DNA from: Thermosipho africanus Ob7 | Lineage (GTDB): Bacteria; Thermotogota; Thermotogae; Thermotogales; Fervidobacteriaceae | Direction of reading: 5' to 3' | DNA: 64,000 nt | Assembly: GCF_003351105.1 (NCBI RefSeq) | Contig: NZ_NKRG01000008.1 | Coordinates: 1 to 64,000 of the forward strand | Part shown: positions 4,189 to 27,091 of the stretch, piece after piece | Position numbering within the stretch: the first letter of the stretch is position 1 | Layout of the letters: the number at the start of each line of letters is the position of its first letter | The notes under the pieces: generated by a model | Told to the model about the DNA's origin: nothing | The model's input: the letters and a program-made list of their open reading frames with translations, nothing else | The model's database searches: none | Made by a program: the position numbers and the translations under genes

Positions 4189-5691
4189 TTATTTTCTTTC
4201 AAGGATGTAGTAACGGAAGATTTGTGTTGGTTCAAGGATAATTCCATCAATGTAATCATGTGCTTCACAATCTGCAGAACCTTGCCAGAGAGGAATGTAA
4301 GGTACTTCTGCTGCATGGAAATTTTGAACAAGTTTATATATCATTTCACGTGAGAATTGATCAGTAGCAGCCCTTGCAGCTACCATTAAATCTTCAACGT
4401 TTTTATTTTCATAGAAAGATCCAAGTGATTTTGCACCATTAATACTTAAGAATGGCCATAGGTAATCGTCTGGGTCGAGGTAATCTGGATACCAACCAAG
4501 TAAGAAGAGTCCCATGGTTCCGTTTAGGAAGTATTCAACGTAAGTTGACCATTCAGCATATTTGATATTTACTTTTATAACACCTGTTTGTTCTAAGGAT
4601 TCTTTTAATACCTGTGCAACGTCTGCCTCTGTTGTTCCATAGTGAGATGGAGTATACCAGAGATCTATTACAAGAGGATTGTCTTTTGTATAACCTGCAA
4701 CCTTTAGAATTTCCACGGCTGCTTTAAGATCCCTTTTTGGGAATACATCTTCATGACTCCACATTCCAGCAGGAACCATTGAGTATAATGGTTTTGCAAG
4801 GTCTACAAATATATCGTTAACTATTGTTTCTCTATCAACAGCAAGTGCAATGGCCTGTCTTACAAGAGGATTATCAAATGGTTTTTGTTTTACATTTACT
4901 ACAAGATACCTTATTTGTGGGCTTGCACCAAGGTAAACTTTTATACCAGGTACATTTTTAAGGTCTAATATGTCTCTTGGATCTAAGTGTCTGTATGCTA
5001 TGTCCACTTCTCCAGTTTCAAGTGCCAATCTTAATTGTTGAGCATTTTCATAGAATTGGATAATAATTTTTGGTGTTTTTGGTTTTGGACCAAAATATTT
5101 TGGATTTTCTTCTAAAACAATTCTTACATCCCTTATCCATTCGGTAATTTTGTAAGGACCAGAGGCAGATGGAGCTCCCTCAAAGAATTTATCTTCAGGA
5201 AATACTTTTGGATTTACTGGAAATGCAACTGTATAACCCAATACTGAAACAAATGCTGAAAATTTACTTTTTAATGTTACTCTAAAAGTAAATTTGTCAA
5301 CAACTTCTGTTTTTTCAACTACGTCAGTTAATAAGAATGCAGGATCACCATTAAGTTTCATTACCCTATCAAATGAATATTTGAAAACATTTGCATCAAT
5401 TTGCGTTCCATCTTCAAAATATGCATCTTTTCTTATATGGAAAGTATATACGAGTCCATCATCAGAAACGTCCCAACTTTCAAATAGCCATGGTTTAATG
5501 TTTGCTGTTCCAATTTCATAGTCTACAGGTCCAGATAAGACATTTTGAAGGATGTTACTTGAAAAATAATCATAGCAGTTTGCGGGATCTAGTGTTCTTA
5601 TTTTATCAGTTGTTCCAACTACAATAACGTCTTTCGATGCAAAAGAAAATACAACAAGCAGCAACCCGATGATAATCATGAATTTTTTCAT
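4189..5691 (-). CDS. oppA: Extracellular solute-binding protein, family 5 (OppA/DppA type)
   Basis: This exported receptor captures peptides or oligosaccharides for the OppBCDF importer. The first 18 or so residues are a signal peptide (MKKFMIIIGLLLVVFSFA) without a lipobox cysteine, so signal peptidase I cleavage is likely. The mature part opens with the family-5 pattern GTTDKIRTLDPANCYDYFS and carries YTFHIRKDAYFEDG near residue 80. The length of 500 residues is normal. The ribosome-binding site is GAGGGGGG just upstream. It is the first gene of the operon and is followed by a stem-loop. Confidence 0.92.
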   Translation of the reverse strand: MKKFMIIIGLLLVVFSFASKDVIVVGTTDKIRTLDPANCYDYFSSNILQNVLSGPVDYEIGTANIKPWLFESWDVSDDGLVYTFHIRKDAYFEDGTQIDANVFKYSFDRVMKLNGDPAFLLTDVVEKTEVVDKFTFRVTLKSKFSAFVSVLGYTVAFPVNPKVFPEDKFFEGAPSASGPYKITEWIRDVRIVLEENPKYFGPKPKTPKIIIQFYENAQQLRLALETGEVDIAYRHLDPRDILDLKNVPGIKVYLGASPQIRYLVVNVKQKPFDNPLVRQAIALAVDRETIVNDIFVDLAKPLYSMVPAGMWSHEDVFPKRDLKAAVEILKVAGYTKDNPLVIDLWYTPSHYGTTEADVAQVLKESLEQTGVIKVNIKYAEWSTYVEYFLNGTMGLFLLGWYPDYLDPDDYLWPFLSINGAKSLGSFYENKNVEDLMVAARAATDQFSREMIYKLVQNFHAAEVPYIPLWQGSADCEAHDYIDGIILEPTQIFRYYILERK

Positions 5692-5723
5692 GAAAATCCC
5701 CCCTCTTCAAGTTTAGTAATCTT

Positions 5724-5753
5724 ATTTTATCATAAAGTAATATTTAAAATCAA
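5724..5753 (-). promoter_or_regulatory. Promoter candidate for the opp operon
   Basis: On the minus strand TTGATT (5748-5753) and TAAAAT (5724-5729) are separated by 18 bases, close to the sigma-A consensus. They lie about 35-60 bases upstream of the oppA start. Confidence 0.5.
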
Positions 5754-5976
5754 ATATTAACAAATGAAAATTTTTATTAAACTAGTGAAAAACAAAATTT
5801 TGTTAATATACAAAAATTTATTTATTTTCATTTTTTATAGTCGTTTTTTATCTTTTTATCTTTTTTTAATAACATTTTGTACTTTTAAAAGTTATAATAA
5901 CTGTTTATTTTAAATTAAATTATGTTTTAATTTAATAAAAATGTAATATATTTGATTAGGTTGGAGGAATTAAGAA
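5754..5976. other. Divergent A+T-rich intergenic region between opp and cas
   Basis: This gap separates the divergent opp and cas operons. It is almost pure A/T. A TATAAT hexamer at 5893-5898 could serve the cas operon but lacks a convincing -35. The cas6 start is set by GGAGG nine bases upstream. There is a short palindrome ACTTTTAAAAGT at 5881-5892. Nothing gene-like is seen. Confidence 0.5.
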
Positions 5977-6711
5977 ATGAGGATAAAGTTGGAATTTGTT
6001 TCGGATGATGACATAATCTTGCCGGTTGGTTTTAACAAGTACATACAGGCATTGATTTATAACTTATTTAGCACAAAATTAAGAAAGTTTGTGCATGAAG
6101 AAGGATTTAGAGGAAAGAAAAAATTTTCGCTCTTTTGTTTTTCGTCTATTTTAGAAAGAGGAAAATTTTTTAAAAATATGAAAGTCTTTAATTTTGGAAA
6201 AAAGATAAGTTTTTTTATTTCGTCTCCTGTTGATATACTAATGGAAGATTTGGTTACAAATTTATTCAAAGGTGATGAATTTATGTTAGGTGAAAATAAA
6301 ATATATTTATCATCAGCTATGGCTGTGATAAAGAACGTTTCTGGAGATAGTATTAAAGTAAAAGCTTTAACACCAATTGAGGTTCATAGAACTTATAAAG
6401 ACAGTGGAAAGAATAAGACTAGGTATTTTACACCATTTGAAAATGAGTTTGCAGAGTTAATAAACCTTAATATAAAAAATAAGTGGGAAGCTTTTTATAA
6501 AGAAAAGTTGGATAAAGATATCGAAATAGTCCCACTTTTTGATGATGAAAGATACAAAAGTGTTGTTTATTATGGGTTTGGTGAAAAAAGGTTTGTTATA
6601 GAAGGTTGGAAGGGAAGCTATCTATTAAAAGGAGATAAAGATATTCTTTCTTTTGTATACGATACAGGGCTTGGTAGTAAAAATTCACAAGGATTTGGAT
6701 TTATAGAGTAA
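5977..6711 (+). CDS. cas6: CRISPR pre-crRNA endoribonuclease Cas6
   Basis: Cas6 cuts the repeat in the primary CRISPR transcript and produces mature guide RNAs. The 244-residue protein has the expected size for a tandem RAMP fold and ends with a glycine-rich loop, GLGSKNSQGFGF, which is the diagnostic C-terminal Cas6 motif. It is the first gene of the cas operon, with cas8b beginning 11 bases later, the usual place in Thermotogales type I-B loci. No frame disruption is visible, so crRNA processing could still operate even if interference is lost. Confidence 0.9.
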   Translation: MRIKLEFVSDDDIILPVGFNKYIQALIYNLFSTKLRKFVHEEGFRGKKKFSLFCFSSILERGKFFKNMKVFNFGKKISFFISSPVDILMEDLVTNLFKGDEFMLGENKIYLSSAMAVIKNVSGDSIKVKALTPIEVHRTYKDSGKNKTRYFTPFENEFAELINLNIKNKWEAFYKEKLDKDIEIVPLFDDERYKSVVYYGFGEKRFVIEGWKGSYLLKGDKDILSFVYDTGLGSKNSQGFGFIE

Positions 6712-6722
6712 GGGGGGATTTA

Positions 6723-8408
6723 ATGTTAAAGCAGATGATAGATTTTTCAAAGAAATTAAGAAGAGAAAATTTCTATTCTCAAAATGAAGAGGTAGATGAA
6801 GATATAGTTTTTTTGGTTATACCATTAGAAGATAAAAAAAGTTTCTACTATGTATTGAAAGATAGGTATTACGATAAGCTAGATTTACTGGAAAATGCAA
6901 AAAAATACGAAGATATTGACGATGAGTTAAAAAAAGTTTTGAAAAATGTTAAATTATTAACGAAAAAACTTCCTGGAGATGAGAAGGGAAATAAAAGTAT
7001 TGGATCAAATAAGGGTACAAATTCTTACAACTTATTTATATTTCAGGGAGTTAAGGGTGATTTAGCTTCAAAAATAATGAAAATTTATAACGAAAAGGTT
7101 TTAAAAAATTTTAAAAATGAAGTTGGAGAATCTTTGCTGGAGAAACTTATTTTTACAAAAGAAGAGGCTGATTTACTCTTTGAAAGTGTAAAAGAAGCAT
7201 CGATAAAGTTATTTGAAAAAAATTATCAAAATGTGTACGGAAAGTTTTATTTTGTATTTGAACTGGAAAATAAAAAGCTCTATGAAGAATTTTATGTGAA
7301 TTATTTAAAGCAAAAGGTTTTTGTTGGCAAAAATGTCGAAAAAAAAGAAGGAAAATGTCCAACATGTGGTAAGGAAGGTATTATTTCAATACCTGATGCG
7401 TTTAACACATTGAATGATAAAAAGCCGTTTTTACTTCACCTTGGAAGACCTGTTGGCTATAACGTAATGATTTGCCAAGATTGTGCACTTGAGCTTATAG
7501 ACTTTATTGGAAAGTTTTTAAATCGCTTTACAATATTTCCTTTGTTTATGAATGAAAATATTCAACAGATGGAGATAAAACTTTTGAAAAGTGATGATGA
7601 GAAAATGGGGTTTAGGAAAATTTTAGAACAAATACATGAAGAAATTAATAAAGAAAATTTACTTCTTGATTTTTATCTAATAATACACAAAGATGATTTT
7701 GTGTATGTAGATTATGTGTTTAATTTTAAGTATGACTTTAATGGAAAGAGTATTTTTGAGTTAGAAGATGTATTGGATAATCTATTCGATAAACGGTTAA
7801 AGAGTAATTATTTTAATCAAGTAAATATTAAGGAAAGTTTACTTGCGAAAAATATTCTCAAATATCGAGAAATTATTTTTGATTTTGTATATAGAGCAAA
7901 GTATGATTCGTTGAATAAAAAAGTAATTGATGATATTTTCTATGATTTACTGAGTTGTTATTTGAAAGGTTTACATAATGAAGAAAAAAAGTCTTTAAAG
8001 CAAATTGAAAATGCTTTTAAAAGTTATAAAAGTTTAAATAAAATATTTGGGGGTGATTTCATGGAGAACTTAGAAAATATCGAGATGGAAAATTTGGAAA
8101 AGATAGAGAATAACTATCAATATTATTATCTTATTGGAAAATTGACAAGGTATCTTCTAGAACAATCAAAGATGTCTGATAAAACTCATGCACTGGTGGA
8201 ACCATTTATTAATGTTAACAATTCAAAGGTTTTGCTTGAAAGAGTTTTTAACAAATACAAACATGCTATCGGTTTTAAAGATGAAAAGTTTGATAAGATT
8301 TTCAGCATAATTTTGAACTATTTTAACAGCGGAAAATTGCCAGATCAGGTAACGAAAAATGATAAGTTTTATTTCTTTGAAGGTTATTTTTCAGGGAAAA
8401 ATTTATAG
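6723..8408 (+). CDS. cas8b: Type I-B Cascade large subunit Cas8b (TM1802 family)
   Basis: This is the large subunit of the type I-B effector, expected to help recognise the PAM and recruit Cas3. The 561-residue protein is lysine-rich and has little recognisable motif content except a zinc-finger-like pair, CPTCGKEG near residue 214 and CQDC near residue 252, typical of the TM1802/Csh1 family. Its position between cas6 and cas7 agrees. The reading frame is intact. The family call rests on these cysteines, the length and the gene order. Confidence 0.85.
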   Translation: MLKQMIDFSKKLRRENFYSQNEEVDEDIVFLVIPLEDKKSFYYVLKDRYYDKLDLLENAKKYEDIDDELKKVLKNVKLLTKKLPGDEKGNKSIGSNKGTNSYNLFIFQGVKGDLASKIMKIYNEKVLKNFKNEVGESLLEKLIFTKEEADLLFESVKEASIKLFEKNYQNVYGKFYFVFELENKKLYEEFYVNYLKQKVFVGKNVEKKEGKCPTCGKEGIISIPDAFNTLNDKKPFLLHLGRPVGYNVMICQDCALELIDFIGKFLNRFTIFPLFMNENIQQMEIKLLKSDDEKMGFRKILEQIHEEINKENLLLDFYLIIHKDDFVYVDYVFNFKYDFNGKSIFELEDVLDNLFDKRLKSNYFNQVNIKESLLAKNILKYREIIFDFVYRAKYDSLNKKVIDDIFYDLLSCYLKGLHNEEKKSLKQIENAFKSYKSLNKIFGGDFMENLENIEMENLEKIENNYQYYYLIGKLTRYLLEQSKMSDKTHALVEPFINVNNSKVLLERVFNKYKHAIGFKDEKFDKIFSIILNYFNSGKLPDQVTKNDKFYFFEGYFSGKNL

Positions 8409-8421
8409 AGGAGGGATCTGA

Positions 8422-9329
8422 ATGTTTTTAAAAAGATGTTATGGAATATTTGTTTTAAAGAGTGAAAATAGCAATTGGAATGCTGATTTTACCAAATATC
8501 CAAGAAGACTTCCAGATGAAAATGCAACGATATTTGCAACTGATAAATCTGCAAAATATGCGATAAGGAAATATTTTGTTGATTTAGGAGAAAGGGTTTT
8601 TGTGTGGAGAACCTTTAAAGAAAACGGCCAACCAAAATCTCTTGAGGAGACATATAAATATTGGGAAGAAGTTTTGAAAAGTGAAGTAAAGAAGATAAAG
8701 ATAAAAATAAAAAATGAATACAAAGAGGTTGTGGATAAATATGACTTTTTTAATAAATTTATAGATGTAAAATTATTTGGAATAACTTTTGCTGTTGGTG
8801 ATGAGCAAATGTCGATTACTGGTCCTCTTCAAATAAGCTATGGAGTAAATAGATACAACGTTAATGTTCCCTATGTTGTGGATATAGCATCGCCGTTTAG
8901 AAACAAAGAAAATGACAAGCAAACAACACTTGGAAATGAGATAAAGAACTTAAAATCTTATTATGTTTACGATTTTGTATTAAATCCAAAGAATCTACCA
9001 GAAGGATGGAGATTAGTGATGAAGAAATTGTTAAATTAAAAGATGCATTGAAAAAATTTGCAACTAATTTAAATACAACCTCTAAAATTGGCACGGAAAA
9101 TGCCTTGCTTTTATTTGTAACTTTAAAAGAGGATTCAAAGTTAGTTCTTCCAACAATGAAGAATTTAGTTAATGTAGATGAAAATGAAGTTTTGGATCTT
9201 TCAAAAATTTCAGAGTTATTGAATAAATATAAAGGTGAAATAGAAAAAGTTGAGGTTTATTACAATGATAATATTTGCAAGGTTAATGGAATAGATGAAA
9301 GCTGGAGAAAGGGTGATATTTTACTTTGA
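8422..9329 (+). pseudogene. cas7: cas7 (TM1801/Csh2-type backbone subunit) with a one-base frameshift
   Basis: Cas7 forms the crRNA-bound backbone of Cascade. Residues 1 to about 195 (start MFLKRCYGIFVLKSE, ATG at 8422) read well up to VLNPKNLPEG. The frame then runs into KKLLN and a stop at 9037-9039. The missing C-terminal part continues in the -1 frame from 9006 as MEISDEEIVKLKDALKKF and includes NTTSKIGTE, ending at 9329. Adding one A at the GGATGG at 9004-9009 would restore about 302 residues, the usual length. There is no classical slippery heptamer, so mutation or sequencing error is more likely than programmed shifting. Reinitiation at ATG 9006 is possible but has a poor ribosome-binding site. 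Confidence 0.85.
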
Positions 9330-9341
9330 GGAGGGCTATTC

Positions 9342-10115
9342 ATGAAAGCCTTTTGTTTTGATATAAAAGCCGATATGGGTTTTTTTAAAAAGAACGATTC
9401 AAATGCTAGGGTATTTACCACTTACAATTTTATTCATAAACCTGCAGTTTTGGGAATTTTCGGTGCAATTTTAGGATATGAAGGCTACAATAGAGATAAA
9501 AAAAATAGTAGTATTGAATACTATGAAAAGCTTAAAAACTTTAAGATTGCAATAAAGCCTTTGTATAAAAAGCCTTTGAAAAAAACGGTGGTTATATTTA
9601 ACAATTCGACTGGTCTTGCTTCACAAGAGTTAGGAGGTGTACTTCAGTCAAAAGAACAAGTTATTGTTGAAAGTTTAGGATATACAATTTTTGTACCATT
9701 TTTTGAAACATTCAGTGAGGATGAAAGGAAAATTTATGAAAAATTAGAGTATATGGTTAAAAACAAATATGCAGAATATCCTATATATTTTGGAAAAAAT
9801 GAGTTTTTGGCATATTTTGAAAATTATAGATCACTTAACGTTGAAGAATTAGAAAGAAAAGAAGCAGTTGTTGATTCTCTTGTTAAAATGAAAGATGTTG
9901 ATTTTTTTGTAAAAACCGATGAGGAAGAATTTGGATTGTTTGAAGAGCATAAAAAAGACCAGAAAATAACATTAATTGATGAATTGCCATATGATTTTGA
10001 TGAAAATTATATGTATATCAAAGATTTATTCATCTTTACAGATAAAGAGTTGAAAATAAAAAACAACGAAAGTTTTTGGAGGACAAGTGATAATGAAGTT
10101 ATTTACGTTTTCTAA
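9342..10115 (+). CDS. cas5: Type I-B Cascade subunit Cas5 (TM1800 family)
   Basis: Cas5 caps the 5' handle of the crRNA in the effector complex. The 257-residue protein begins MKAFCFDIKADMGFFKK and continues with PAVLGIFGAILGYEGY, the glycine-rich segment typical of Cas5 near residues 33-50. A GAGGAGGG ribosome-binding site precedes it. The frame is open throughout. Its end overlaps the start of cas3 by 23 bases when ATG 10093 is used. Confidence 0.87.
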   Translation: MKAFCFDIKADMGFFKKNDSNARVFTTYNFIHKPAVLGIFGAILGYEGYNRDKKNSSIEYYEKLKNFKIAIKPLYKKPLKKTVVIFNNSTGLASQELGGVLQSKEQVIVESLGYTIFVPFFETFSEDERKIYEKLEYMVKNKYAEYPIYFGKNEFLAYFENYRSLNVEELERKEAVVDSLVKMKDVDFFVKTDEEEFGLFEEHKKDQKITLIDELPYDFDENYMYIKDLFIFTDKELKIKNNESFWRTSDNEVIYVF

Positions 10116-12497
10116 GTCCATAGATGATAAGATGGCTCATAAAAAGGATGAAAAATTTGAACCTTTTATAGAACATGTTAGGAAAACAGAAAATTACTTA
10201 AAAGAATTAATAGAAAAGTATTGTATTGAAGAAATATTAAAAAATTTATTTTATGAGTTTAAAATCAGAGATTCTTATGTTGAAACTGTGTATGAAATTA
10301 TTAAATACCATGACATAGGAAAATTAACGGAAGAATTTCAGGATGGTTTAAAACTTGGAAATATTTCAATTACTCACAGTGATATAGGATTTTATACGAT
10401 TTCTTCGCTTTTAACAGATAAAGCGTTGTCAGGAAAGTTAAAAGAAAAGGAGTTTGTATTTTTACTTCTTATTGCAACTGTGGTGTCAAGACACCACAGT
10501 TTTTTATTAGATATTAACGAGATTCTTTTTTGGAATGAAGAAAAGGAAAAATATGTGAGGTATATCCTTGAGTTTTTAGAAACGGAGAATGATAAGGATA
10601 CAATAATTAAAATGACAAAAAGTGCTTTTGGTAATTTAAATATGAGAAAGATAAAAAAGGTTATTAATATAGAATTTTACTTGTTGTATAAACTATTAAA
10701 TTCTTTACTTATTACTTGTGATTATCTTGCAACCATGGAATTTATGAAAGGTGTTAAGTTTATTCCAAAAATAATAGATAATGGTTTGAAGAATGAGATC
10801 TTCGAGAATATATCCTCGAGAAAAATTAATGGAAATTTTAATCCAGATATAGATAAAGAAATTGAAAAGCTTAGGTTGATGAAAAAAGAGGAAATTTTTG
10901 ATTTGAATACTTTAAGAAGTGTTATAACTGCAAAAATTGAGGAAAAATTTGAGAAAAGCAAGAAAAATGTATTTTTTATTGAAGTTCCAACGGGTGGCGG
11001 AAAAACAAATATTTCACTGAGATTGATTAGAAAGCTGTTGGGAAAAAAGAAGAAAGTATTTTACGTAATACCTTACGTAAATATAATAGAACAAAGTTTC
11101 GATTACTTTCGCAAATTTATTCCTGGTGAATATATAACAAGATATGATCATAAATATATTGATATATCTGATGATGAAAACAAAGAAAAAAGCTATACTC
11201 AAACATTATTCTTAAATTTTCCTTTTGTTTTTACAACTCATGTTGGGTTTTTTGATATGTTCTTTAGAAATGGAAAATCTGATAATTTTAATTTTTATCA
11301 AATAGCAAACAGTGCAATTATTTTTGATGAAGTACAGGCATACAATCCGAAATTCTGGAATACACTTTCAAATATTTTTTATTATCTTAGCAAGTATTTA
11401 AACACTACAATAATTATAATGAGTGCAACGCTTCCTGATTTTACAAAGTTTATTGAAAAAGAAGACTTTGTTGAAAATTTAACACCAGATGTTGTAGATC
11501 ATAAATTGTTTGAAAGAGCAAATTATGTATTTTTAGATAAAGATGTTGAGAAAAAATTTTAGAAGAAGTAAATAAATCAAAAAAAACTTTGGTAGTTGTA
11601 AATACGGTTAAGGAATCATATAGGATGTATGAAAGATTAAAAAGCATAATAGATGGAGAGGTATATATATTAAATTCGACTTTACTTGATCTAAGAAAAA
11701 GAGAGTTAATTGATTATATAAAAAAGTATGATAAGGAAAAACCACTTGTGCTTGTTTCTACACAATCAATTGAAGCAGGTGTAGATCTTGACTTTGATGT
11801 GGGGTTTAGAGCATTTTCACTTCTTGATTCGATTATTCAAACTATGGGGCGTGTTAATCGAAATGCAAGATTAAAAAGTGCTAAATTGTTCTTGTTTGAT
11901 GATGGAAATTGGAAAAGAATTTACAAAAGTGATGAAAGAGAAAAAATTTTGGAAGAGAATTTTTCAAAGTTTAAATCAGGAAAATTAAGCTTAAATGAAT
12001 TTTATTCACTTACAATAGAAAAGTTAAAGAAAAAGCTAAATGTTTTTACATTAGACTATTTAGATTATTTTAAAGATTTGAAATTTAAAAATATAGATAA
12101 AGAATTAAAACTGATTGATGGTGATACTTTTTCACTTTTTATACCTCTTGAAATTCCTTTGAGTAAGTTGAATAACATAAAAAAATTATTATTAGAATAC
12201 AATTTAATATCTGATAAAGATAAAGTTTTGCAAGGAAAAAAAGTTTGGAAAGTTTACATAGATAATGATTTTAGTTATGTTGAAAATAGATTGTTTTCAA
12301 AAATATTTTCATTGTTTGTTGTGTCACTTTATAACTATAGGACTGATGGAAAAAGTATAAAAGAAATATTGAAAGATGAAATGAATGGAGAATTTTATTT
12401 TGCAGAAGATTTTGAAAAATATTATAGCTATAAAGATGGTTTAAATGTTGAAAAATTTTTGGAATTAAAATCTTCTAGGGAGTATGATTTTCTATGA
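10093..12497 (+). pseudogene. cas3: cas3 nuclease-helicase with a one-base frameshift
   Basis: Cas3 degrades target DNA recruited by Cascade. The N-terminal HD nuclease is recognisable (YHDIGKL near residue 76, SRHHSF near 135), followed by the helicase with Walker A PTGGGKTN, FDEVQAYNP and MSATLP. The frame stops with TAG at 11560-11562 after a six-A, four-T run (11551-11560). In the -1 frame the protein goes on without a break as EKILEEVNKSKKTLVVVN and includes motif VI, QTMGRVNRNA, to 12497. One extra A in the run would restore a protein of about 800 residues. I chose ATG 10093, ten bases from GGAGG; GTG 10087 is an alternative. As read, the helicase is split between its RecA domains and cannot work. 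Confidence 0.87.
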
Positions 12498-12970
12498 TTA
12501 CTGGAAGTTTAATTCAAGCATACTTTGTTTGTAAAAGACAAGCTTGGCTTCTTTCGAGGCAATTAATAGGTGATCAAGATAGTGATTTTCTTGCGATAGG
12601 TAGGCTTATTTCTCAAGAGTCATATAGCAGTGATAAAAAAGAGATAACTATAGATGGTGGAAAAGTTGATATTGTAAAGCTAGAAAATGGTGAGATTAAA
12701 TTAGTCGAAGTTAAAAAATCATCGAGAATGATTAAAAGCGCTAAATTTCAGCTTTTGTATTATATGTGGAAAATGAATGTATATCATGGAGAAATTAGAA
12801 TTCCAAAAGAAAAGAAGGTTATAGAAGTTCATATGACGGACGATGCTAGAGAAGAATTATTAAATTTAATAAATGAGATAGAAGATGTTTTAAATGGAAA
12901 TAAAGTGCCAAAAGCAGAAAGAAAAAAGTATTGTAAAACGTGTTCTTTTGAATATTTTTGCTGGAGTTGA
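12494..12970 (+). CDS. cas4: CRISPR adaptation exonuclease Cas4
   Basis: Cas4 is a RecB-like nuclease with an iron-sulfur cluster that trims prespacers and selects PAM ends. An N-terminal cysteine lies in FVCKRQAW (near residue 12), the nuclease core shows GGKVDIV and LVEVKKSS (near 55-75), and the C-terminal cysteines are CKTCSFEYFC. At 158 residues it is a normal short Cas4. Its ATG overlaps the cas3 stop (ATGA). The frame is intact although its functional partner cas1 is damaged. Confidence 0.9.
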   Translation: MITGSLIQAYFVCKRQAWLLSRQLIGDQDSDFLAIGRLISQESYSSDKKEITIDGGKVDIVKLENGEIKLVEVKKSSRMIKSAKFQLLYYMWKMNVYHGEIRIPKEKKVIEVHMTDDAREELLNLINEIEDVLNGNKVPKAERKKYCKTCSFEYFCWS

Positions 12971-12975
12971 TATCT

Positions 12976-13708
12976 GTGAAGGAAACAATATATATTTTTT
13001 CTTCAGGAACGTTAAAAAGAGAAGATAATTCTTTGATATTCATAAATGAAGAGAATCAAAAAAAGCATATTCCAGTTGAAAATTTAAAGAGGAAGAAAAT
13101 TAGATAATCATATATCAGAAATAGAAAGAAATATGGAAAAGATATTAAAAATAGATGAAATACCTAAATTGATGCAAGTTGAAGGAAAGATAAAGAAAAT
13201 TTATTATAAATCTTTTAATGAAATAATAAATTCTAGTGATTTTAAATTTACAAAGAGGGGGAAAAGGCCACCTATTGATAGGTTAAATTCGTTGATTAGC
13301 TTTTCAAATTCTTTGATTTATAGCATAGTTTTAAGAGAAATTTATGCAACACACCTTGATCCTAGAATAGGTTATTTACATTCAACAAATTTTAGAAGAT
13401 TTTCATTAAATTTGGATATTGCAGAGATTTTTAAGCCTATTATTGGCGATAGAACAATTTTTAGTGTTATTAATAAAAATATAATTGGAGTTAAGGACTT
13501 TGAAAAAAGCTTAAATAGAATATTTTTGAATGATAAAGGTAAAAGAAAATTTATTGAATTTTTGGAAAACAGATTGAATGAGACTGTGAAACTGAGAAAG
13601 ATAGGAAGAAATGTGAGTTATAGGACGTTGATAAGAATGGAACTTTATAAATTGGAAAAACATTTTTTAGAAGATGAAGTATATGAACCTTTAATAATGG
13701 AGTGGTGA
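12976..13708 (+). pseudogene. cas1: cas1 integrase with a large internal deletion
   Basis: Cas1 integrates new spacers. A GTG at 12976 starts a normal Cas1 N-terminus (KETIYIFSSGTLKRED) that runs only to KHIPVENL, then out-of-frame residues and a stop at 13105-13107. From about 13088 a second frame reads RGRKLDNHISEIERNMEK and continues as a normal Cas1 C-terminal domain to 13708. It keeps the conserved Glu (MQVEGKI), His (GYLHSTNF) and Asp (LDIAEIFKP). Family members have about 320-340 residues; the remnants cover about 245, so roughly 85-100 residues of the N-terminal domain and linker are gone and the frame is shifted. The catalytic fragment could start at ATG 13133, but a functional integrase is unlikely. 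Confidence 0.88.
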
Positions 13709-20775: not shown

Positions 20776-20805
20776 ACTTGACATTTAATGATACAATAAC
20801 TTGAC
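20776..20805 (+). promoter_or_regulatory. Direct repeats and -10 candidate upstream of the regulator pair
   Basis: ACTTGAC occurs at 20776-20782 and again at 20799-20805, a 23-base period. Between them TGATACAAT (20789-20797) could be an extended -10. Activators of the SARP class are known to bind direct repeats near the -35 region, so these may be the sites of the regulators encoded just downstream. Confidence 0.35.
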
Positions 20806-20857
20806 GTAGAAGTTTTCATTTCTAATTTATTCTTTTTTCACATAGGGGGGATTAAAA

Positions 20858-21415
20858 CTGATCAAACTTTTTGGAGACTTTTTCATTCCTGAAATAGAAG
20901 AATTTTGCTTTACCAAACCCGAAGTTTTACTATTCTCATTTTTAGTTTCAAAAAAAAGCATAGTAAACTTTCTAGATGTAAAGCAGCTATTTGCAGATTT
21001 AAAAGAAATTGATGATAGATACATAAGAAGGTTAGTATCGAGGCTCAATGGAAAAATTGAACGTATTGGAAAAGTAGAGCTGCTGAATAACAAACGAATT
21101 GAGCTTGTAATGTATAGTGACGTTAAAGTAGATCTATGGGAAATGGAAAAGATATTAAGCAATTTTGATAGATCAGAGAAATTATTAGAAAAAATTTTAG
21201 ATTTATACACAGGGCCATTTCTTGCTGGTATAGAATGTTTGTGGGCAAAGCAAATGAGAAGGTATTACAACGTTCTTTTAAAGAGCATTGTAGATGATTA
21301 TTTAGAAAATATAGGATTTGAAAGTAGATTAGCTGTAAAATTAATGAAAGTTTTTCCAGATTTGTCTATTTTTGACGAAGAACTTGAGAGTGAATATTTA
21401 TATGATTTATTTTAA
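20858..21415 (+). CDS. SARP/BTAD-type transcriptional regulator, first of two
   Basis: The reading frame gives about 185 residues beginning IKLFGDFFIPEIEEF. It pairs an N-terminal winged-helix-like part with a C-terminal BTAD-like helical part (LYTGPFLAGIECLW, near residue 110), a short version of Streptomyces antibiotic regulatory proteins. The start appears to be CTG at 20858, seven bases after AGGGGGG; no ATG, GTG or TTG is available in frame before the internal ATG at 21110, which would discard the DNA-binding part. It overlaps the next gene by 14 bases. It probably controls the envelope genes downstream; that is inferred from position. Confidence 0.72.
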   Translation: MIKLFGDFFIPEIEEFCFTKPEVLLFSFLVSKKSIVNFLDVKQLFADLKEIDDRYIRRLVSRLNGKIERIGKVELLNNKRIELVMYSDVKVDLWEMEKILSNFDRSEKLLEKILDLYTGPFLAGIECLWAKQMRRYYNVLLKSIVDDYLENIGFESRLAVKLMKVFPDLSIFDEELESEYLYDLF

Positions 21416-22157
21416 AATGTTTGGTGATTTTAAGGTATTTGTTGATGGCAAAGAAGTAGAAACGAAGAATAATAAAAATTTAAAATTGCTTTTTTATATT
21501 ATCTCTTCTAGAAAAAGTTATATTCCAAAAGAAGAGATATACGATGTATTTTGGAATAATTTTACAAGAGATTATGCAAGAAAAAACTTAAATGTTCAAA
21601 TGTATAATTTAAAGAAGACATATCTATTTTTAGAAGATGTTATAAAAAACTATAGGGAAAACATATACATAGATAGAGATAAAATTAGTTCTGATTATGA
21701 ATTTTTTATGGATAATATAGGCTCGAATAGTTTAAAAGCACTTAAGGTATATTCCGGTGATTTTTTAGAGGGGTATGACGACGATTGGATTGTTGAAAAA
21801 AGAAAGCAATGTAGAAAATTAGCAAACCTTGCTTTATATTTTTACAACGAAGAAGCAAAAAAAGTTGAGATTTTATTAGAAATTCAAAAAGATATGAGAG
21901 AAAAACCGTACGTAATACTATTTTTAAATGAAATAAAAAACTTAAGAATGAGAAAAGGAGACTTTCTTTTAAATCTTGAAAATGGATCACTTGTTTTATT
22001 AGAAAAAGGTAATAAGACAGTTTCTCAAGCTGTTGATGGATTTTTAAAAAGGTCAGGTATAGAACGTGCAAAGATGTTAAATGAAGATGAAGCATTGAAT
22101 TTGATAAACTTTAAAAATTCTGATAAGGAGGAAAAAATTTATGAGGAAAATCTTTAG
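21402..22157 (+). CDS. SARP/BTAD-type transcriptional regulator, second of two
   Basis: This is a paralogue of the preceding gene. It starts MIYFKMFGDFKVFVDGKEV, has a winged-helix region with EEIYDVFWNNFTRDYARKNL (near residue 50), and a BTAD segment LKVYSGDFLEGYDDDWIVEK (near 115). I place the start at ATG 21402, inside the end of the upstream gene; an ATG at 21372 would add ten unconserved residues. The protein is 251 residues and lacks the ATPase or TPR extensions of large SARPs. It overlaps the following exported-protein gene by 17 bases, so regulators and envelope genes form one transcript. Confidence 0.75.
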   Translation: MIYFKMFGDFKVFVDGKEVETKNNKNLKLLFYIISSRKSYIPKEEIYDVFWNNFTRDYARKNLNVQMYNLKKTYLFLEDVIKNYRENIYIDRDKISSDYEFFMDNIGSNSLKALKVYSGDFLEGYDDDWIVEKRKQCRKLANLALYFYNEEAKKVEILLEIQKDMREKPYVILFLNEIKNLRMRKGDFLLNLENGSLVLLEKGNKTVSQAVDGFLKRSGIERAKMLNEDEALNLINFKNSDKEEKIYEENL

Positions 22158-23505
22158 TTTGGTTTTAATACTTGTTTCATTGTTTGCCTTCTCTTTAAAG
22201 ATATATCCAAATCTCATTTGTAATATTGAAGTTAAAGACTTGATCTTTGAATATAGCTTTTTTGTCAGGAATGATCTTAATTATGATGCAATAATAAGAA
22301 TTGAAAAGATAGATTTTGTAACGGATGGTAAAAAGTATGAATTTGACCTTCCAGATTATAAGTATAGTGTAAAAAATTACGTTGATTTAGATAGCTATGA
22401 ATTTGAACTTAAACCGGATGAAGAAAAGAGGATAACGTTAAAGTTTAATATTCCTTCTGATTTTGATGGAGCAAGTGGAGTATTTGCCTTAAAGATTTCT
22501 CAGGAAAGTAAAAGAGGTGGACAGATCCAAATAAGGTTAAATTACATTGTTCCATTCTTTTTGAGGTTCAAAAATATAAATCCTATTCAAAAGGTTGATA
22601 TTACGGATGTTGATATAAGAAATCTAAATCTCTATCCTGATGAACGTTACGGAAATTTTGGAACTTTGATAACCATGAAATTGAAGAACAATGGAAATGT
22701 AGTTTTTCTACCTTATGGCACTATTAAAATTACTTCAGTAGATTTAAGGACAACAATTTCTGAAAAAGAAATAAATAGTTTTGATTTAGTTGTATTTCCG
22801 GAAAATGAGGCTTTTTATAAGTTTAAAATTCCAGAGATTTTACCAACTGGGAAGGTAAGATTTTCAGTTGAAGGTGAATCGTACGGCATGAGATTTTCTA
22901 TAAGCAAGGATGCAACAATCAATGAAACCTATGAAAATTTAATTGTTGAAGCATCACCAAATGTTATCATTTTTGATGATAAGACAATAAATACTCTTAA
23001 ATCAATCTTGATAAAGAATTTAACAAGTTTTAAATCGAATATTTCTTGGGAAATTGTTGATCAAAAAGGTTTAAAAAGTGATATTTTCAAGTTGTATCCA
23101 AGTGTTTTAAGAATATATCCATATAGAGCAACCTCTATAAAGATTAGATCAAATGAAAGAGAAATTACCAACGTTGGAGATAGAATTTTTTATTTGCATC
23201 TTTTATACGATGGCAAAAAAATTTCTGTAAAATCTCCTTTGATTGTTGTAAGAGGCCAAAAACTTTCTCCAGAGTTGAAAGCAAAATACTTGCCAGAAGA
23301 AAATTCTATAGAGCTAACAAATACTGGAAATTGTTTGTTAGCTATAGATATTAACTATTCTAGTTTTTCTCTTTACAATGATATTGTTTTAATACCTGGA
23401 CAATCTAAAAAAATAAAATTAGAAGATAATATCAGCATTTCAAGGATCATTTTAAAGTATGGGATTTTTGGAGAGAATAAAGAGTATGAAGAGTATATAA
23501 GGTGA
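22141..23505 (+). CDS. Exported multi-domain beta-sandwich protein, chaperone-like, function unknown
   Basis: The first 18 residues are a signal peptide (MRKIFSLVLILVSLFAFS) without a lipobox. The rest is almost entirely predicted beta structure. Residues 20-140 resemble a periplasmic pilus-chaperone or WxL-associated immunoglobulin-like domain: alternating hydrophobics, then FELKPDEEKRITLKFNIP and SGVFALKIS. At least two further sandwich-like units follow, for example TLITMKLKNNGNVVFLPYG near residue 180. No catalytic motif is seen. AAGGAGG stands before its start within the regulator gene, and the secretin-like gene starts five bases later. I do not recognise a named family. Confidence 0.6.
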   Translation: MRKIFSLVLILVSLFAFSLKIYPNLICNIEVKDLIFEYSFFVRNDLNYDAIIRIEKIDFVTDGKKYEFDLPDYKYSVKNYVDLDSYEFELKPDEEKRITLKFNIPSDFDGASGVFALKISQESKRGGQIQIRLNYIVPFFLRFKNINPIQKVDITDVDIRNLNLYPDERYGNFGTLITMKLKNNGNVVFLPYGTIKITSVDLRTTISEKEINSFDLVVFPENEAFYKFKIPEILPTGKVRFSVEGESYGMRFSISKDATINETYENLIVEASPNVIIFDDKTINTLKSILIKNLTSFKSNISWEIVDQKGLKSDIFKLYPSVLRIYPYRATSIKIRSNEREITNVGDRIFYLHLLYDGKKISVKSPLIVVRGQKLSPELKAKYLPEENSIELTNTGNCLLAIDINYSSFSLYNDIVLIPGQSKKIKLEDNISISRIILKYGIFGENKEYEEYIR

Positions 23506-23509
23506 TACC

Positions 23510-24592
23510 ATGAAAAAAATAACTTTTTTGTTTTTGTTAATATGGGGGATTGTTTTTTCTTTAACTGTATCATTCTATGAACAGGATATAAAAGAAGCTT
23601 TAAATATTTTATCTTTGGAATCTGGGAAAAAGATAGTGTATGAGCCAAATCTCAGTGGTATTGTAAGTATTGAGATAGACGAGGATTTATCATTGGAAGA
23701 AATCCTTGACATTATTCTTTTACCGTATAACTACTATTGGGTAAAGTATGATGAAATCTACTTTGTTGGAGTTTCAAATCCTGAATCGCCCGGTTTTTTT
23801 AAAAATGCAAAAATATTTAATATTCCATTGAGGTATAAAACCGCTTCAGAATTGAGCAAAGTTTTACCTAAAGAGTTGAAAGAGTATATTTTATACAGCT
23901 CAAGTGAAGATAGTATTACAGTATTTGCGCCAATTCCAGTGGCATCTCAAATTGCAAATATTGTTTCTATCTTAGATGTAAAGGAAAAAAGTTATACCGC
24001 AAATATAAAAATAATAGATGTTTCTGAAAGTTATCTGAAATCATTTTTGTTAAAAATAAATTATTCCCAGGAAAGATTAAATGATTTGTTGAGTGGTGCA
24101 ATATTCTCTATACCATTGTACGGAAATTATTTAAATCTCTTGTTTTCATCGACTACAGAAAATAAAGATTTTGATCTCATATACGATGGAAATATTAAAA
24201 TGTTAAGTGGAGTAAAATCTTCCTTAAGAACATCTAAAAAAGTATTAGTTGATGAGATAGTGGATAATAAGATTTCTAAAAAAGCAGTTGAATCCAATAT
24301 TTCCTTTGAGCTTACTCCATATTTTTTAAAATCTTCTGCATTGATAGATTTGAATATTAACTTGGAAAATATAGGGACAGACAGATTAGGTTCACAAGTT
24401 TCAACAAAGGTCCCCATTGATTTTAGTGTTCCAAAAGTTATTGGGGCATATTCATATTTAAAATCAGAAAGAGCTGATGGTGGATTGTCTTTTTTAATGG
24501 ATTTGCCAATAATAGGTAATTTGTTCAAGCAAAATTTTGAAAAGCATGAAAAAAGATATATTTTGTTTGTCTTGAGAATAGAGGAGGAGTAG
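23510..24592 (+). CDS. Short secretin-like outer-membrane protein
   Basis: After a signal peptide (to about residue 19) comes an STN/N0 domain (residues 20-75, with VSFYEQDIKEALNILSLESG) and an N1-like domain (about 95-160, FNIPLRYKTASELSKVLP). The C-terminus ends with the secretin signature FLMDLPIIGNLF (near residue 338) and RYILFVLRI. True secretins such as PilQ or GspD have more N-domains and 500 or more residues; this one has 360, a minimal form. It could make a pore or collar in the outer toga membrane. It lies in one operon with the chaperone-like and STN-barrel proteins. Confidence 0.78.
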   Translation: MKKITFLFLLIWGIVFSLTVSFYEQDIKEALNILSLESGKKIVYEPNLSGIVSIEIDEDLSLEEILDIILLPYNYYWVKYDEIYFVGVSNPESPGFFKNAKIFNIPLRYKTASELSKVLPKELKEYILYSSSEDSITVFAPIPVASQIANIVSILDVKEKSYTANIKIIDVSESYLKSFLLKINYSQERLNDLLSGAIFSIPLYGNYLNLLFSSTTENKDFDLIYDGNIKMLSGVKSSLRTSKKVLVDEIVDNKISKKAVESNISFELTPYFLKSSALIDLNINLENIGTDRLGSQVSTKVPIDFSVPKVIGAYSYLKSERADGGLSFLMDLPIIGNLFKQNFEKHEKRYILFVLRIEEE

Positions 24593-24595
24593 ACA

Positions 24596-25930
24596 ATGCA
24601 GAGAAATTTTCTAATATTTTTGTCTTTGATTGTATCTATAATAAGCTTTGCTATTAATTTGGACTTTAATAACAAACCATTGATAGATGTTCTGAATGCT
24701 ATAGAAGATGAAACAGGAGTTAAGTTTATAATATTGGCAGACGACATTGATAGATTTATAACACTTTCTCTTAAGGATGTTAGTTTAGATGTTGCATTGA
24801 GAAGTCTCTTATTACCTTATGGTCTTGATTATGAACGTATTTCAAATGATACTTTTTTAATATACTCTACAACTCAGAAAAAAACTGTTAAATTGATGCC
24901 AAAAATCTATACTTTAAAACATACATCTCCAGAATTAATTTCAAATTATCTTTCATTAAACGGTATAGAAAATTACGTAATTGATGAAAAGCTTGTGTTT
25001 TATGTAGATTCAGAAGAAGAATATAAAAGAATTATATCTGACATTGAGAAACTTGATGAAAAGATAAATGGAAAAATTTTGATTTTTTCCGTATTTAAAT
25101 TGAATAAATACAAAGAAGTCTCTACATTAGATGACAGAGTACTTATTAATTTATACAATTTTTCTCAGAGTTATAAATTATTTTCTTTTGTAGAAGGTGG
25201 ATACTTAAGTTATATGGATGTTAAAATGCCTGCTACAGCAACTTCTCAGGTCATAAAAATTGCGGAATTTACATCGAATGAATTTATTCTAAGGATAAAT
25301 TCTGAAAAGGAAAATAAAAAACTTGAGCTTTCAATTGGAAGTGATGTTTTTAGCACCAGCTTGAAAGAGAATAACCAAGAACAAAATATTGTTTTAAGAG
25401 GAAAGAAAGAAATTTATATTTTAAGATACAAAATTTTAAGTGATGTATTAGCAGAAAAAGTTAAAGATATAGAGCCTTTTGATCTAGATAATAAACAAAC
25501 GGAAATAACTACTGAGTATTTTAAAGGTAGGACTGATCTTAAAATACAGGATAATAAGTATCTTTTAAAATTGTCCTTTGAATCTATTGAAATTTTAGGT
25601 TTTGAGTTTTACACAAATGTGATTGATAATTTTAGTGTAGGGATTGGATTTGAATCAAATTTGTTCTTTTTGACATTGAACGATTTAATTAAGATAAATG
25701 ATTTATCGCTGCAAATGAATTTAAGATACGATCTTGAAAATTTTTATTTAAGAAATTTGGTAATTTATAAATTTAATTTTGATAGGTTCAAAATTGGGGT
25801 AGGCATTGAATTTTCAAATGATAGTACAGAAGTAGTTTTTCATACAAATGTTGATTTTTCAAGGTATGAGTTTGGATTTAAAATTTCAAATGATAAATCC
25901 TTTGGAGTCTTATTGGGAGTAATATATTAA
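24596..25930 (+). CDS. STN-domain protein with barrel-like C-terminal half
   Basis: A signal peptide (MQRNFLIFLSLIVSIISFA) is followed by an STN/N0 domain (residues 20-75, NLDFNNKPLIDVLNAIEDE) and an N1-like domain (about 100-155). Unlike its neighbour it has no secretin signature. The last 150 residues alternate polar and hydrophobic positions and end in an aromatic residue (LLGVIY), as outer-membrane beta-barrel proteins do. This suggests a barrel that docks on the secretin-like partner through STN domains, as in TonB-dependent receptors. The gene ends by overlapping a converging gene by three bases. Confidence 0.65.
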   Translation: MQRNFLIFLSLIVSIISFAINLDFNNKPLIDVLNAIEDETGVKFIILADDIDRFITLSLKDVSLDVALRSLLLPYGLDYERISNDTFLIYSTTQKKTVKLMPKIYTLKHTSPELISNYLSLNGIENYVIDEKLVFYVDSEEEYKRIISDIEKLDEKINGKILIFSVFKLNKYKEVSTLDDRVLINLYNFSQSYKLFSFVEGGYLSYMDVKMPATATSQVIKIAEFTSNEFILRINSEKENKKLELSIGSDVFSTSLKENNQEQNIVLRGKKEIYILRYKILSDVLAEKVKDIEPFDLDNKQTEITTEYFKGRTDLKIQDNKYLLKLSFESIEILGFEFYTNVIDNFSVGIGFESNLFFLTLNDLIKINDLSLQMNLRYDLENFYLRNLVIYKFNFDRFKIGVGIEFSNDSTEVVFHTNVDFSRYEFGFKISNDKSFGVLLGVIY

Positions 25931-26346
25931 AAATCAATGAGAGAAAGCATGGGGATAAAATTAAAGTCTAGGGTAACATTTATTGTGTTTAATGATAGAT
26001 CGAAATCTGGATAGTTAAATTGAAGAATTAAATCTCCTGATACCATTCCATATCCCCATCTAAAAATTTTGTATCCAATTTTTGTTGGATAGTTTGGGTT
26101 CATTGAAATTGATTTTTTTCCTATCCAAACATTGGTAACAGTTACTTTTGAATTGTTTGTAGTTGGTAAAATGTACATGTAAAAACCAGGCGATGAACTT
26201 ATTTCCATGTAACCAACTATAGCTTTTTTTGTTAGATCGTCAATTACAAAGACTGAATTTTCGTTATATGACCATAAAATGTTTATAGTTTGAGGTATTA
26301 TTATAATATTTAAAAGAAGAATTGCTAATAAAAAAAATTTTTTCAA
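25927..26346 (-). CDS. Small exported beta-rich protein, paralogue of the 26426-26884 product
   Basis: This encodes 139 residues with a signal peptide (MKKFFLLAILLLNIIII). The mature part aligns with the product of 26426-26884: NILWSYNENSVFVIDD against KVTWDYDETQVFAVDD, and the ends LDFNFIP against FDFTFLP. I chose TTG at 26344-26346 as start, eight bases after GGAG; a GTG at 26355 overlaps the ribosome-binding site. It converges on the STN-barrel gene and shares its stop region. It could be a minor subunit or tip of a surface structure, with the paralogue as the major one. That role is speculation. Confidence 0.65.
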   Translation of the reverse strand: MKKFFLLAILLLNIIIIPQTINILWSYNENSVFVIDDLTKKAIVGYMEISSSPGFYMYILPTTNNSKVTVTNVWIGKKSISMNPNYPTKIGYKIFRWGYGMVSGDLILQFNYPDFDLSLNTINVTLDFNFIPMLSLIDF

Positions 26347-26379
26347 AAAAATCACTCCTTTTTATACTATTATAATATA

Positions 26380-26404
26380 AAAGCCACCCAAATTGGGTGG
26401 CTTT
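26380..26404 (-). terminator. Terminator between the two small exported-protein genes
   Basis: AAAGCCACCCAA pairs with its complement across a very short AT loop, and T-rich sequence follows on the minus strand. It ends the transcript of the 26426-26884 gene, so its paralogue downstream probably has its own promoter (TATAAT-like sequence at about 26367-26375). Confidence 0.8.
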
Positions 26405-26425
26405 ATTGCAATTTCACAAAATTTT

Positions 26426-26884
26426 TTATAATGGTAAGAAGGTAAAGTCAAATTTTACTGTAAAATCATCTGATGCGTTTGTATAATCTCCACCAAATGT
26501 AATTGCAAGGTTACCTTCTAAAATTTTTGTTGAAACACTTGTTGGATTTGTGTTATCGTTGCTCAATATAGTGCTTCCTACTTTAACTTCGTTAACTGCT
26601 AAATCACTTACTCCACCGTCTGCAACAATAGTTGTTTGATAGTACATCTTGAATGTCTTGTTTGATTCAAATCTGATGTTACCAACGTTTGCAATTCCTG
26701 TGGTATCATCAACTGCAAAAACTTGTGTTTCATCGTAGTCCCAAGTAACTTTTACCCATTGAGAAACACTAAAAGTTAATGTTTGTGTCCAGTTTCCGTT
26801 TGGGTTTAATTTAATGTTTGCAGTACCAGCGGCAAAAGCAGCCAAGCTTAAAAGTGCAATAAGAAGAATAACTACCTTTTTCAT
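26426..26884 (-). CDS. Small exported beta-rich protein, likely abundant surface or periplasmic subunit
   Basis: This encodes 152 residues with a clear signal peptide (MKKVVILLIALLSLAAFAAG) and a mature beta-rich domain of about 130 residues rich in T, N, D and V, with no cysteine and no catalytic motif. A strong AGGAGGG ribosome-binding site, a near-consensus promoter and its own terminator suggest high expression as a single gene. It has a paralogue at 25927-26346. The composition resembles pilus, S-layer or coat subunits. It faces the secretin/chaperone-like operon, so export through that apparatus is plausible but unproven. Confidence 0.7.
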   Translation of the reverse strand: MKKVVILLIALLSLAAFAAGTANIKLNPNGNWTQTLTFSVSQWVKVTWDYDETQVFAVDDTTGIANVGNIRFESNKTFKMYYQTTIVADGGVSDLAVNEVKVGSTILSNDNTNPTSVSTKILEGNLAITFGGDYTNASDDFTVKFDFTFLPL

Positions 26885-26925
26885 ACTTTCCCTCCTTTAA
26901 ATTGTGATTTAAATTTTCATTTTTA

Positions 26926-26953
26926 ATTTTATCTATATTTTGAGCATTATCAA
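26926..26953 (-). promoter_or_regulatory. Promoter of the small exported-protein gene
   Basis: On the minus strand TTGATA (26948-26953) and TAAAAT (26926-26931) are 16 bases apart, with the start codon about 40 bases downstream. A longer A+T-rich element at 26964-27000 resembles one upstream of the subtilisin gene (28870-28908). Confidence 0.55.
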
Positions 26954-27040
26954 AACCATATCAATAAATTATTGGTAAATAATAAATCAAAATTTATTTT
27001 TTTTGAGCGTAAAGTAGATTTTTTTACTTTTTAGATTAAA

Positions 27041-27075
27041 AAAAAAACGGGACTTCTATTTAGAAGCCCCGTTTT
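27041..27075 (-). terminator. Terminator after the subtilisin-like gene
   Basis: AAAACGGG and CTTCT pair with AGAAG and CCCGTTTT (one A-C mismatch) across a four-base loop. On the minus strand a run of about ten T follows. Confidence 0.88.
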
Positions 27076-27091
27076 ATATAATTTGTATTTT

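Follow-up and report, generated by a model that had tools for sequence, protein, structure and literature searches.

A candidate chaperone–secretin pathway for a donor-strand surface fibre in Thermosipho africanus and other Thermotogota

Fibres whose subunits are held together by donated beta strands are known from Pseudomonadota, where they are built by the chaperone–usher route, from Gram-positive bacteria (TasA) and from archaea (threads). Chaperone–usher systems, which build type 1, P, Csu, Caf1 and CFA/I pili, combine a chaperone of two immunoglobulin (Ig)-like domains with beta-sandwich subunits that carry an N-terminal extension; one type of subunit lacks the extension, the gene for the pore lies alongside, and the locus contains no ATPase gene. 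To our knowledge, neither an outer membrane nor a PapD-like chaperone takes part in the assembly of TasA and thread fibres. The TasA system has a known strand-donating partner, TapA (PMC10151520). In Bacillota, WxL/WxLIP clusters encode WxLIP proteins (DUF916–DUF3324) and small exported beta partners; AlphaFold work predicts that WxLIP donates a strand to WxL, and the first WxLIP domain has been proposed to bind peptidoglycan (PMC10599100). Pores with the N0–N1–secretin architecture are found in the type II secretion system (T2SS), type IV pili (T4P), the type III secretion system (T3SS) and filamentous phages (pIV). Here we analyse a block of genes in the first 64,000 nucleotides of contig NZ_NKRG01000008.1 of Thermosipho africanus Ob7 (assembly GCF_003351105.1), hereafter the window. 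On balance, positions 22141-26884 of the window probably encode a chaperone–secretin pathway for a surface fibre assembled by donor-strand exchange, with the small exported protein sm2 as its main subunit.

Conserved linkage and inheritance of the genes

Five genes lie on the plus strand at 20858-25930, overlapping or separated by gaps of a few bases in our reading of the open reading frames (ORFs), and two genes on the minus strand, at 25927-26355 and 26426-26884, are oriented toward them. The products are two regulator-like proteins (reg1 and reg2), an exported chaperone-like protein (chap), a mini-secretin, an STN/barrel protein and two small exported beta proteins (sm1 and sm2). All seven genes named in an earlier reading of the window, hereafter the original prediction, were found at the same or very close coordinates. 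Among the locus proteins, the secretin and STN domains alone reach or approach the Pfam cut-off.

The arrangement is not due to chance, because it recurs throughout Thermotogota. Relatives of the chaperone are present in 57 of 98 Thermotogota genomes, and at each locus with enough flanking sequence the genes for the chaperone, the secretin and a third exported protein are adjacent, and one or more small signal-peptide proteins are encoded alongside (L035-L042, L044-L049 and L051-L054 were read with flanks; L043 lies at a contig end and L050 is a solitary STN gene). Conservation in related genomes, on which the original prediction had staked its reading, is therefore seen both in gene presence and in linkage. 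The triplet with its adjacent small signal-peptide proteins spans the families of the phylum as far as Mesoaciditogales. When 84,980 genomes of bacteria and archaea were scanned, 18 loci were obtained, all in Thermotogota and including Mesoaciditoga and Athalassotoga; the scan is limited by its pattern and is no proof of absence outside the phylum. Mini-secretin relatives occur in 35 of 41 nearby genomes, a count that includes weak matches solely to the large resident secretin.

Within the genome of strain Ob7 itself, searching for secretins pointed to three places: a secretin of 1319 aa, the window gene and a mini-secretin of 369 aa on another contig. A complete paralogous triplet of chaperone-like, mini-secretin and STN/barrel genes occupies C3:244-4078, and a small-subunit gene there is cut at the break between contigs C2 and C3. 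In a FastTree phylogeny of the chaperone and the secretin, the window copy groups with Fervidobacterium-like loci, the C3 copy groups with Thermosipho-like loci, and these two clades are sisters; the two copies are read as an old duplication followed by differential loss. Two divergent versions of the system are found in one Thermotoga-like genome (L047 and L048, both in G033). Across 26 loci, the three proteins show correlated pairwise distances (Spearman 0.70-0.80). In the sister genome G001, whose flanks are 90-95% identical, window positions 22135-27089 are gone and about 116 bp stand in their place; the gap extends from the chaperone gene to the terminator of the following gene, just beyond sm2. 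Gain or loss affects all five structural genes as one: because this gap spans the triplet together with sm1 and sm2, the small proteins travel with it, and the regulators can stay behind.

The tandem chaperone and the small exported proteins

The exported protein chap (22141..23505, plus strand) consists of two units of two domains each, a WxLIP-like one at residues 20-264 and one with a PapD-like fold at residues 265-454. The first half is homologous to WxLIP. The Pfam family WxLIP_PGBD (DUF916) is matched by 19 of 20 chaperone family members (best E 2.6e-8; chap of the window alone, E 0.054 only), the family profile matches E. faecium WxLIP structures, and hhalign against four Gram-positive WxLIP proteins aligns chap residues 17-264 (prob 96.3, E 1.5e-9). 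The AlphaFold (AF2) model of chap, made from an alignment of 16 sequences, is confident (pLDDT 83). The best match of the model over residues 21-273 is WxLIP (9i1y/9i25, VIA Z 14.4/14.1), and residues 268-454 match FimC, CsuC, Caf1M, PapD and others with VIA Z 12-14, in support of a second half folded like PapD. Profile comparison shows that the halves are homologous (prob 97.9, E 5e-13). Neither half is linked to E. coli PapD-type chaperones by sequence profiles; homology to PapD by sequence was dropped, and fold alone is therefore claimed. Because of the WxLIP match of the N-terminal half, the PapD-type fold of the C-terminal half and the mutual homology of the halves, chap is a tandem of two chaperone units of the strand-capping type, related to WxLIP by sequence and to PapD by predicted fold only. 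The likeness to both pilus and WxL chaperones, pointed out in the original prediction, is borne out, one for each half. A candidate G1-type strand for capping subunits, chosen by sequence position and pattern, lies at residues 126-143 (GGQIQIRLNYIVPFFLRF; 22516..22569, plus strand), inside the WxLIP-aligned region, and its capping role is predicted from sequence. Matches of chap to HYDIN/axoneme Ig repeats were set aside as generic.

The WxLIP homology, together with the peptidoglycan binding proposed for that domain (PMC10599100), would also fit an envelope tether, in which chap binds peptidoglycan and, with the secretin and the barrel protein, either anchors the outer membrane of the toga or makes the amorphous toga layer out of the small proteins in the periplasm. 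The amorphous layer of the toga lacks biochemical characterisation (PMC5487896), and in the open-licence toga literature we found no protein description fitting this locus. However, the chap model ends in a beta strand and has no helix, unlike WxLIP with its C-terminal transmembrane helix, and a periplasmic layer needs no secretin. An essential tether is further disfavoured because the genes are patchily present (57/98) and have been lost in the close relative G001. We regard this explanation as quite improbable.

The subunits of the proposed fibre would be sm2 (26426..26884, minus strand), the candidate main subunit, and sm1 (25927..26355, minus strand), which lacks an N-terminal extension. 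Orthologues of sm2 in Fervidobacterium-like loci are 47-56% identical. The two main small-protein subfamilies have an SN motif and the [VI]xQW region in common, and their profiles match each other with prob 92, signal peptide included. By sequence, the small proteins have no relatives in Pfam or the PDB. They were rejected as sequence-recognisable pilins or enzymes, the best matches being weak and at chance level, and as WxL domains, profile comparison having returned the signal peptide or nothing and Pfam no WxL match.

In the AF2 model of sm2 (pLDDT 82), residues 44-151 form a beta-sandwich and residues from about 20 to 43 are a low-confidence, unpaired coil. The best matches of this model are TasA, Caf1, CfaB, the FimH pilin domain, PapA, CsuA/B, Sulfolobus 0406 and CanA, most of which are subunits of donor-strand fibres and belong to several unrelated systems; the top Foldseek match is the TasA fibre 8aur (E 5e-4, TM 0.45/0.33). 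The model thus supports a pilin-like fold with a free extension. That extension (residues 21-43; 26756..26824, minus strand) is a candidate donor strand according to column statistics and the model. Residues L36, F38 and V40 of sm2 alternate with polar residues, and across the family 95-100% of the sequences having these three positions are hydrophobic there, with mostly polar residues between; a donor strand would be expected to alternate in this way. The extension is missing in 5 of 26 sequences, namely the window sm1 and one sequence per related locus aligned. Since a subunit without the extension can only begin a fibre, sm1 is a candidate for the tip and probably the first subunit. The suggestion in the original prediction of two small exported subunits is supported, with the product of 26426-26884 as the candidate for the main one.

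The sm2 gene has a strong ribosome site and a terminator of its own. An intrinsic-terminator-like hairpin lies between sm2 and sm1 (26380..26404, minus strand), and a promoter-like site, TTGATA-16-TAAAAT, lies upstream of sm2 (26926..26953, minus strand; 10/12 match). Promoter-like matches in the region are not more frequent than in shuffles. The strong expression signals claimed for this gene hold as regards the ribosome site, the terminator and the 10/12 match, but not as an excess of promoter matches over shuffles. Elsewhere, identical or 99% identical duplicates of subunit genes flank other subunit genes (L042:4030-4491 and 5683-6144; L055:4112-4600 and 7927-8415), and the assembly of strain Ob7 (G000) breaks inside such a duplicated subunit gene at the contig ends C2/C3. 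These copies suggest gene conversion or recent duplication.

Outer-membrane proteins, the proposed pathway and flanking genes

By its sequence, the mini-secretin (23510..24592, plus strand; 360 aa) is a member of the secretin family with N0/STN, N1 and secretin domains. Pfam detects Secretin (E 7e-6) and STN (E 3e-4), the family profile matches PilQ, GspD and pIV structures (E 1e-30 to 1e-36), and NCBIfam gives partial matches, so that the secretin signature seen earlier is real. Secretin matches in Haliovirga and Pontibacter plasmids were not used, because the first sits in an ordinary T2SS-type locus and the second has a GspE-family gene nearby.

The STN/barrel protein (24596..25930, plus strand; 444 aa) has STN (Pfam E 6e-10) and N1-like domains followed by a C-terminal region resembling an outer-membrane barrel, and its family matches the N0 domain of PilQ (E 1e-7). 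Distant copies of this third gene (L048, L049 and L051-L054) are without STN and keep the C-terminal end. The last residue is aromatic in all 21 relatives, and at least four of five alternating porin-like positions are present in 20 of the 21; a porin-like C-terminus is absent from all secretins and all chaperones compared. This signature, a BAM signal of outer-membrane barrel proteins, supports the barrel-like end that the original prediction ascribed to the third protein. A usher-based system was rejected, no FimD-type usher (PF00577) exceeding the cut-off in any of the 98 Thermotogota genomes, with a positive E. coli control.

The ORF reading confirms that the window locus contains no gene for an ATPase, an inner-membrane platform or a (pseudo)pilin, as had been claimed. 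None of these T2SS/T4P genes was recognised among the listed neighbours of the relatives' loci either, bar pilin-like genes near fliD. In Thermotoga-like genomes, such pilin-like genes adjoin fliD near the fibre locus (L051:128-2242 and L048:337-2575). A standard type II/IV operon was rejected on the grounds of the missing genes and of ATPases lying elsewhere in the genome. Those ATPases, which are of the T2SSE family, could conceivably power export through the mini-secretin as an alternative secretin, making the locus an accessory of resident T2SS/T4P machinery; the genome also encodes the separate 1319-aa secretin. We consider this highly unlikely, because the locus lacks ATPase, platform and pilin genes, a large resident secretin is already present elsewhere, and the mini-secretin has chaperone and barrel proteins as its conserved partners.

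Another reading is a minimal pIV-like exporter: the small beta-sandwich proteins would be released in soluble form or as a surface coat, with no strand exchange, and chap would serve as a general holdase or adaptor. In its favour, the mini-secretin has the size of pIV and matches its structure (7ofh, E 1.5e-30), ATPase and platform genes are absent from the locus, and the small proteins have no sequence relation to pilins. However, donor-strand fibre subunits dominate the structural matches of sm2, a free alternating extension is present that is missing from the sm1-type paralogues, and the fold of chap is that of a subunit-capping chaperone. Such an exporter is therefore rather unlikely.

One block that combines pilin-like subunits, a chaperone of PapD/WxLIP type and a pore for the outer membrane points to a fibre-assembly pathway, and one in which the secretin and its barrel partner replace the usher is the simplest account of the co-located parts. 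From these parts we infer a fibre whose subunits exchange donor strands and which is exported through the secretin, and a role for the third protein, as follows. Sec would export sm2 and sm1, as main and first or tip subunit, to the periplasm, where the tandem chaperone would lend its edge strands to cap their incomplete beta-sandwiches. Each capping strand would be displaced at the outer membrane by the N-terminal extension of the incoming subunit, and the growing fibre would leave the cell via the mini-secretin. Beside the secretin, the STN/barrel protein may act as a pilot, gate or assembly platform, taking over part of the job of the usher. An ATPase would be unnecessary because strand exchange itself would drive assembly.

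Several points weigh against this pathway. The window secretin covers just positions 56-163 of 169 in Pfam Secretin. Sequence comparison detects no relation of sm1 or sm2 to FimA-type pilins or WxL, the structural Z of sm2 is at best 7.1, under the safe level of the tool, and the models of chap and sm2 were built on thin alignments (16 and 10 rows). Non-fibre proteins also contain similar beta-sandwiches, and a fold by itself proves no function. Finally, no precedent for a secretin serving a donor-strand fibre, or for a secretin as the exit of one, was found in the open-licence literature searched.

The view of the locus as an undescribed envelope assembly or secretion locus is supported. Of the surface layer, fibre or coat proposed in the original prediction, the sm2 model and the sequence pattern favour the fibre over an unspecified layer or coat, refined to predicted donor-strand subunits with a double chaperone; the earlier reading is right in kind, with a mechanism that was too general.

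Upstream of the structural genes, reg1 (20858..21415, plus strand; 185 aa) is regulator-like and related to the winged-helix/BTAD regulators that accompany the system at other loci, and reg2 (21399..22157, plus strand; 252 aa) is a winged-helix regulator-like protein with homologues beside other loci. The in-frame start of reg1 is CTG, preceded by a G-rich ribosome site with a run of six G; its copy in the sister genome (L091) begins at 2119 with an ordinary start codon. Both regulators are kept in G001, the reg1 copy being 88% identical. Apart from a weak winged-helix match of reg2 (Trans_reg_C, E 0.02), the window regulators gave no match, and clear BTAD matches (E 1e-8 to 5e-10) are confined to longer regulators beside relatives' loci. 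The regulators had been called BTAD-type; the regulator-like, winged-helix character stands, but strict BTAD membership of the window proteins is not supported. Farther away, positions 5977-13708 of the window are judged by ORF appearance to be a CRISPR-Cas operon; in the ORF list, its Cas3-like gene is split (10087-11562 and 11589-12497), and the Cas1-like ORF at 13133-13708 resembles the C-terminal part only.

Comparison with described assembly systems

No description of the combination of pilus-like subunits, a doubled chaperone and a small secretin was found in the open-licence literature. Among secretin-based systems (T2SS, T4P, T3SS and phage pIV), which have the N0–N1–secretin pore in common with the locus, pIV is nearest by size and by lacking pilus machinery of its own. 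These systems differ in that their secretins work with an ATPase, a platform and (pseudo)pilins, whereas the mini-secretin is accompanied by a chaperone, a barrel protein and beta subunits. TasA and archaeal threads are approached by the sm2 model, which matches the TasA fibre and the Sulfolobus 0406 filament, with no sequence match found.

The WxL/WxLIP clusters share with the locus a WxLIP protein homologous to the first half of chap and small exported beta partners. In contrast to WxLIP, chap is duplicated and lacks a membrane helix at its C-terminus; the sequences of the subunits are not those of WxL domains, and an outer membrane and a secretin are involved. Chaperone–usher systems share the two-domain Ig chaperone fold, small beta-sandwich subunits of which one type lacks the N-terminal extension that the others carry, a pore gene alongside and the absence of an ATPase from the locus. 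They differ in using a usher, where the Thermotogota locus has a secretin and an STN/barrel protein together with a tandem chaperone, and the Thermotogota proteins have no detectable sequence relation to the PapD or FimA families.

The best plasmid matches of chap over its first two domains are in Deinococcus, where the clusters L097:4944-10517 and L098:4869-10554 encode a two-domain periplasmic chaperone with a small exported protein on either side and, after these, an Ig/barrel-like protein of ~1000 aa with SdrD_B/CarboxypepD domains; in L097, a BTAD regulator lies about 2 kb past the cluster. The Deinococcus chaperone is homologous to the N-terminal half of chap (prob 98.6, E 1e-15). As in Thermotogota, a WxLIP/PapD-like chaperone is flanked by small exported proteins, but the chaperone is single rather than duplicated, the outer partner is the ~1000-aa protein, and there is no secretin. 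The cluster looks like a cousin with a usher-like partner. Because the chaperones are homologous and yet the outer partners differ, this suggests one ancient chaperone family paired with differing outer-membrane partners.

The Thermotogota locus would represent at least a new variant of chaperone-assisted surface-fibre assembly and possibly its own class. That it is a separate class, defined by donor-strand subunits, a duplicated WxLIP/PapD-type chaperone and a secretin with an STN/barrel protein instead of a usher, and widespread in Thermotogota, is a proposal that we make tentatively, doubt slightly outweighing confidence. If true, it would provide a named fibre system for a deep-branching diderm phylum whose surface proteins are almost unknown, and a testable account of the origin of chaperone-assisted fibre assembly and its varied outer-membrane pores. 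The WxLIP proteins of Gram-positives and the PapD-type chaperones would then be joined in one protein and, with the Deinococcus cousin, strand-capping chaperones would predate ushers and would later have been joined to differing outer-membrane pores.

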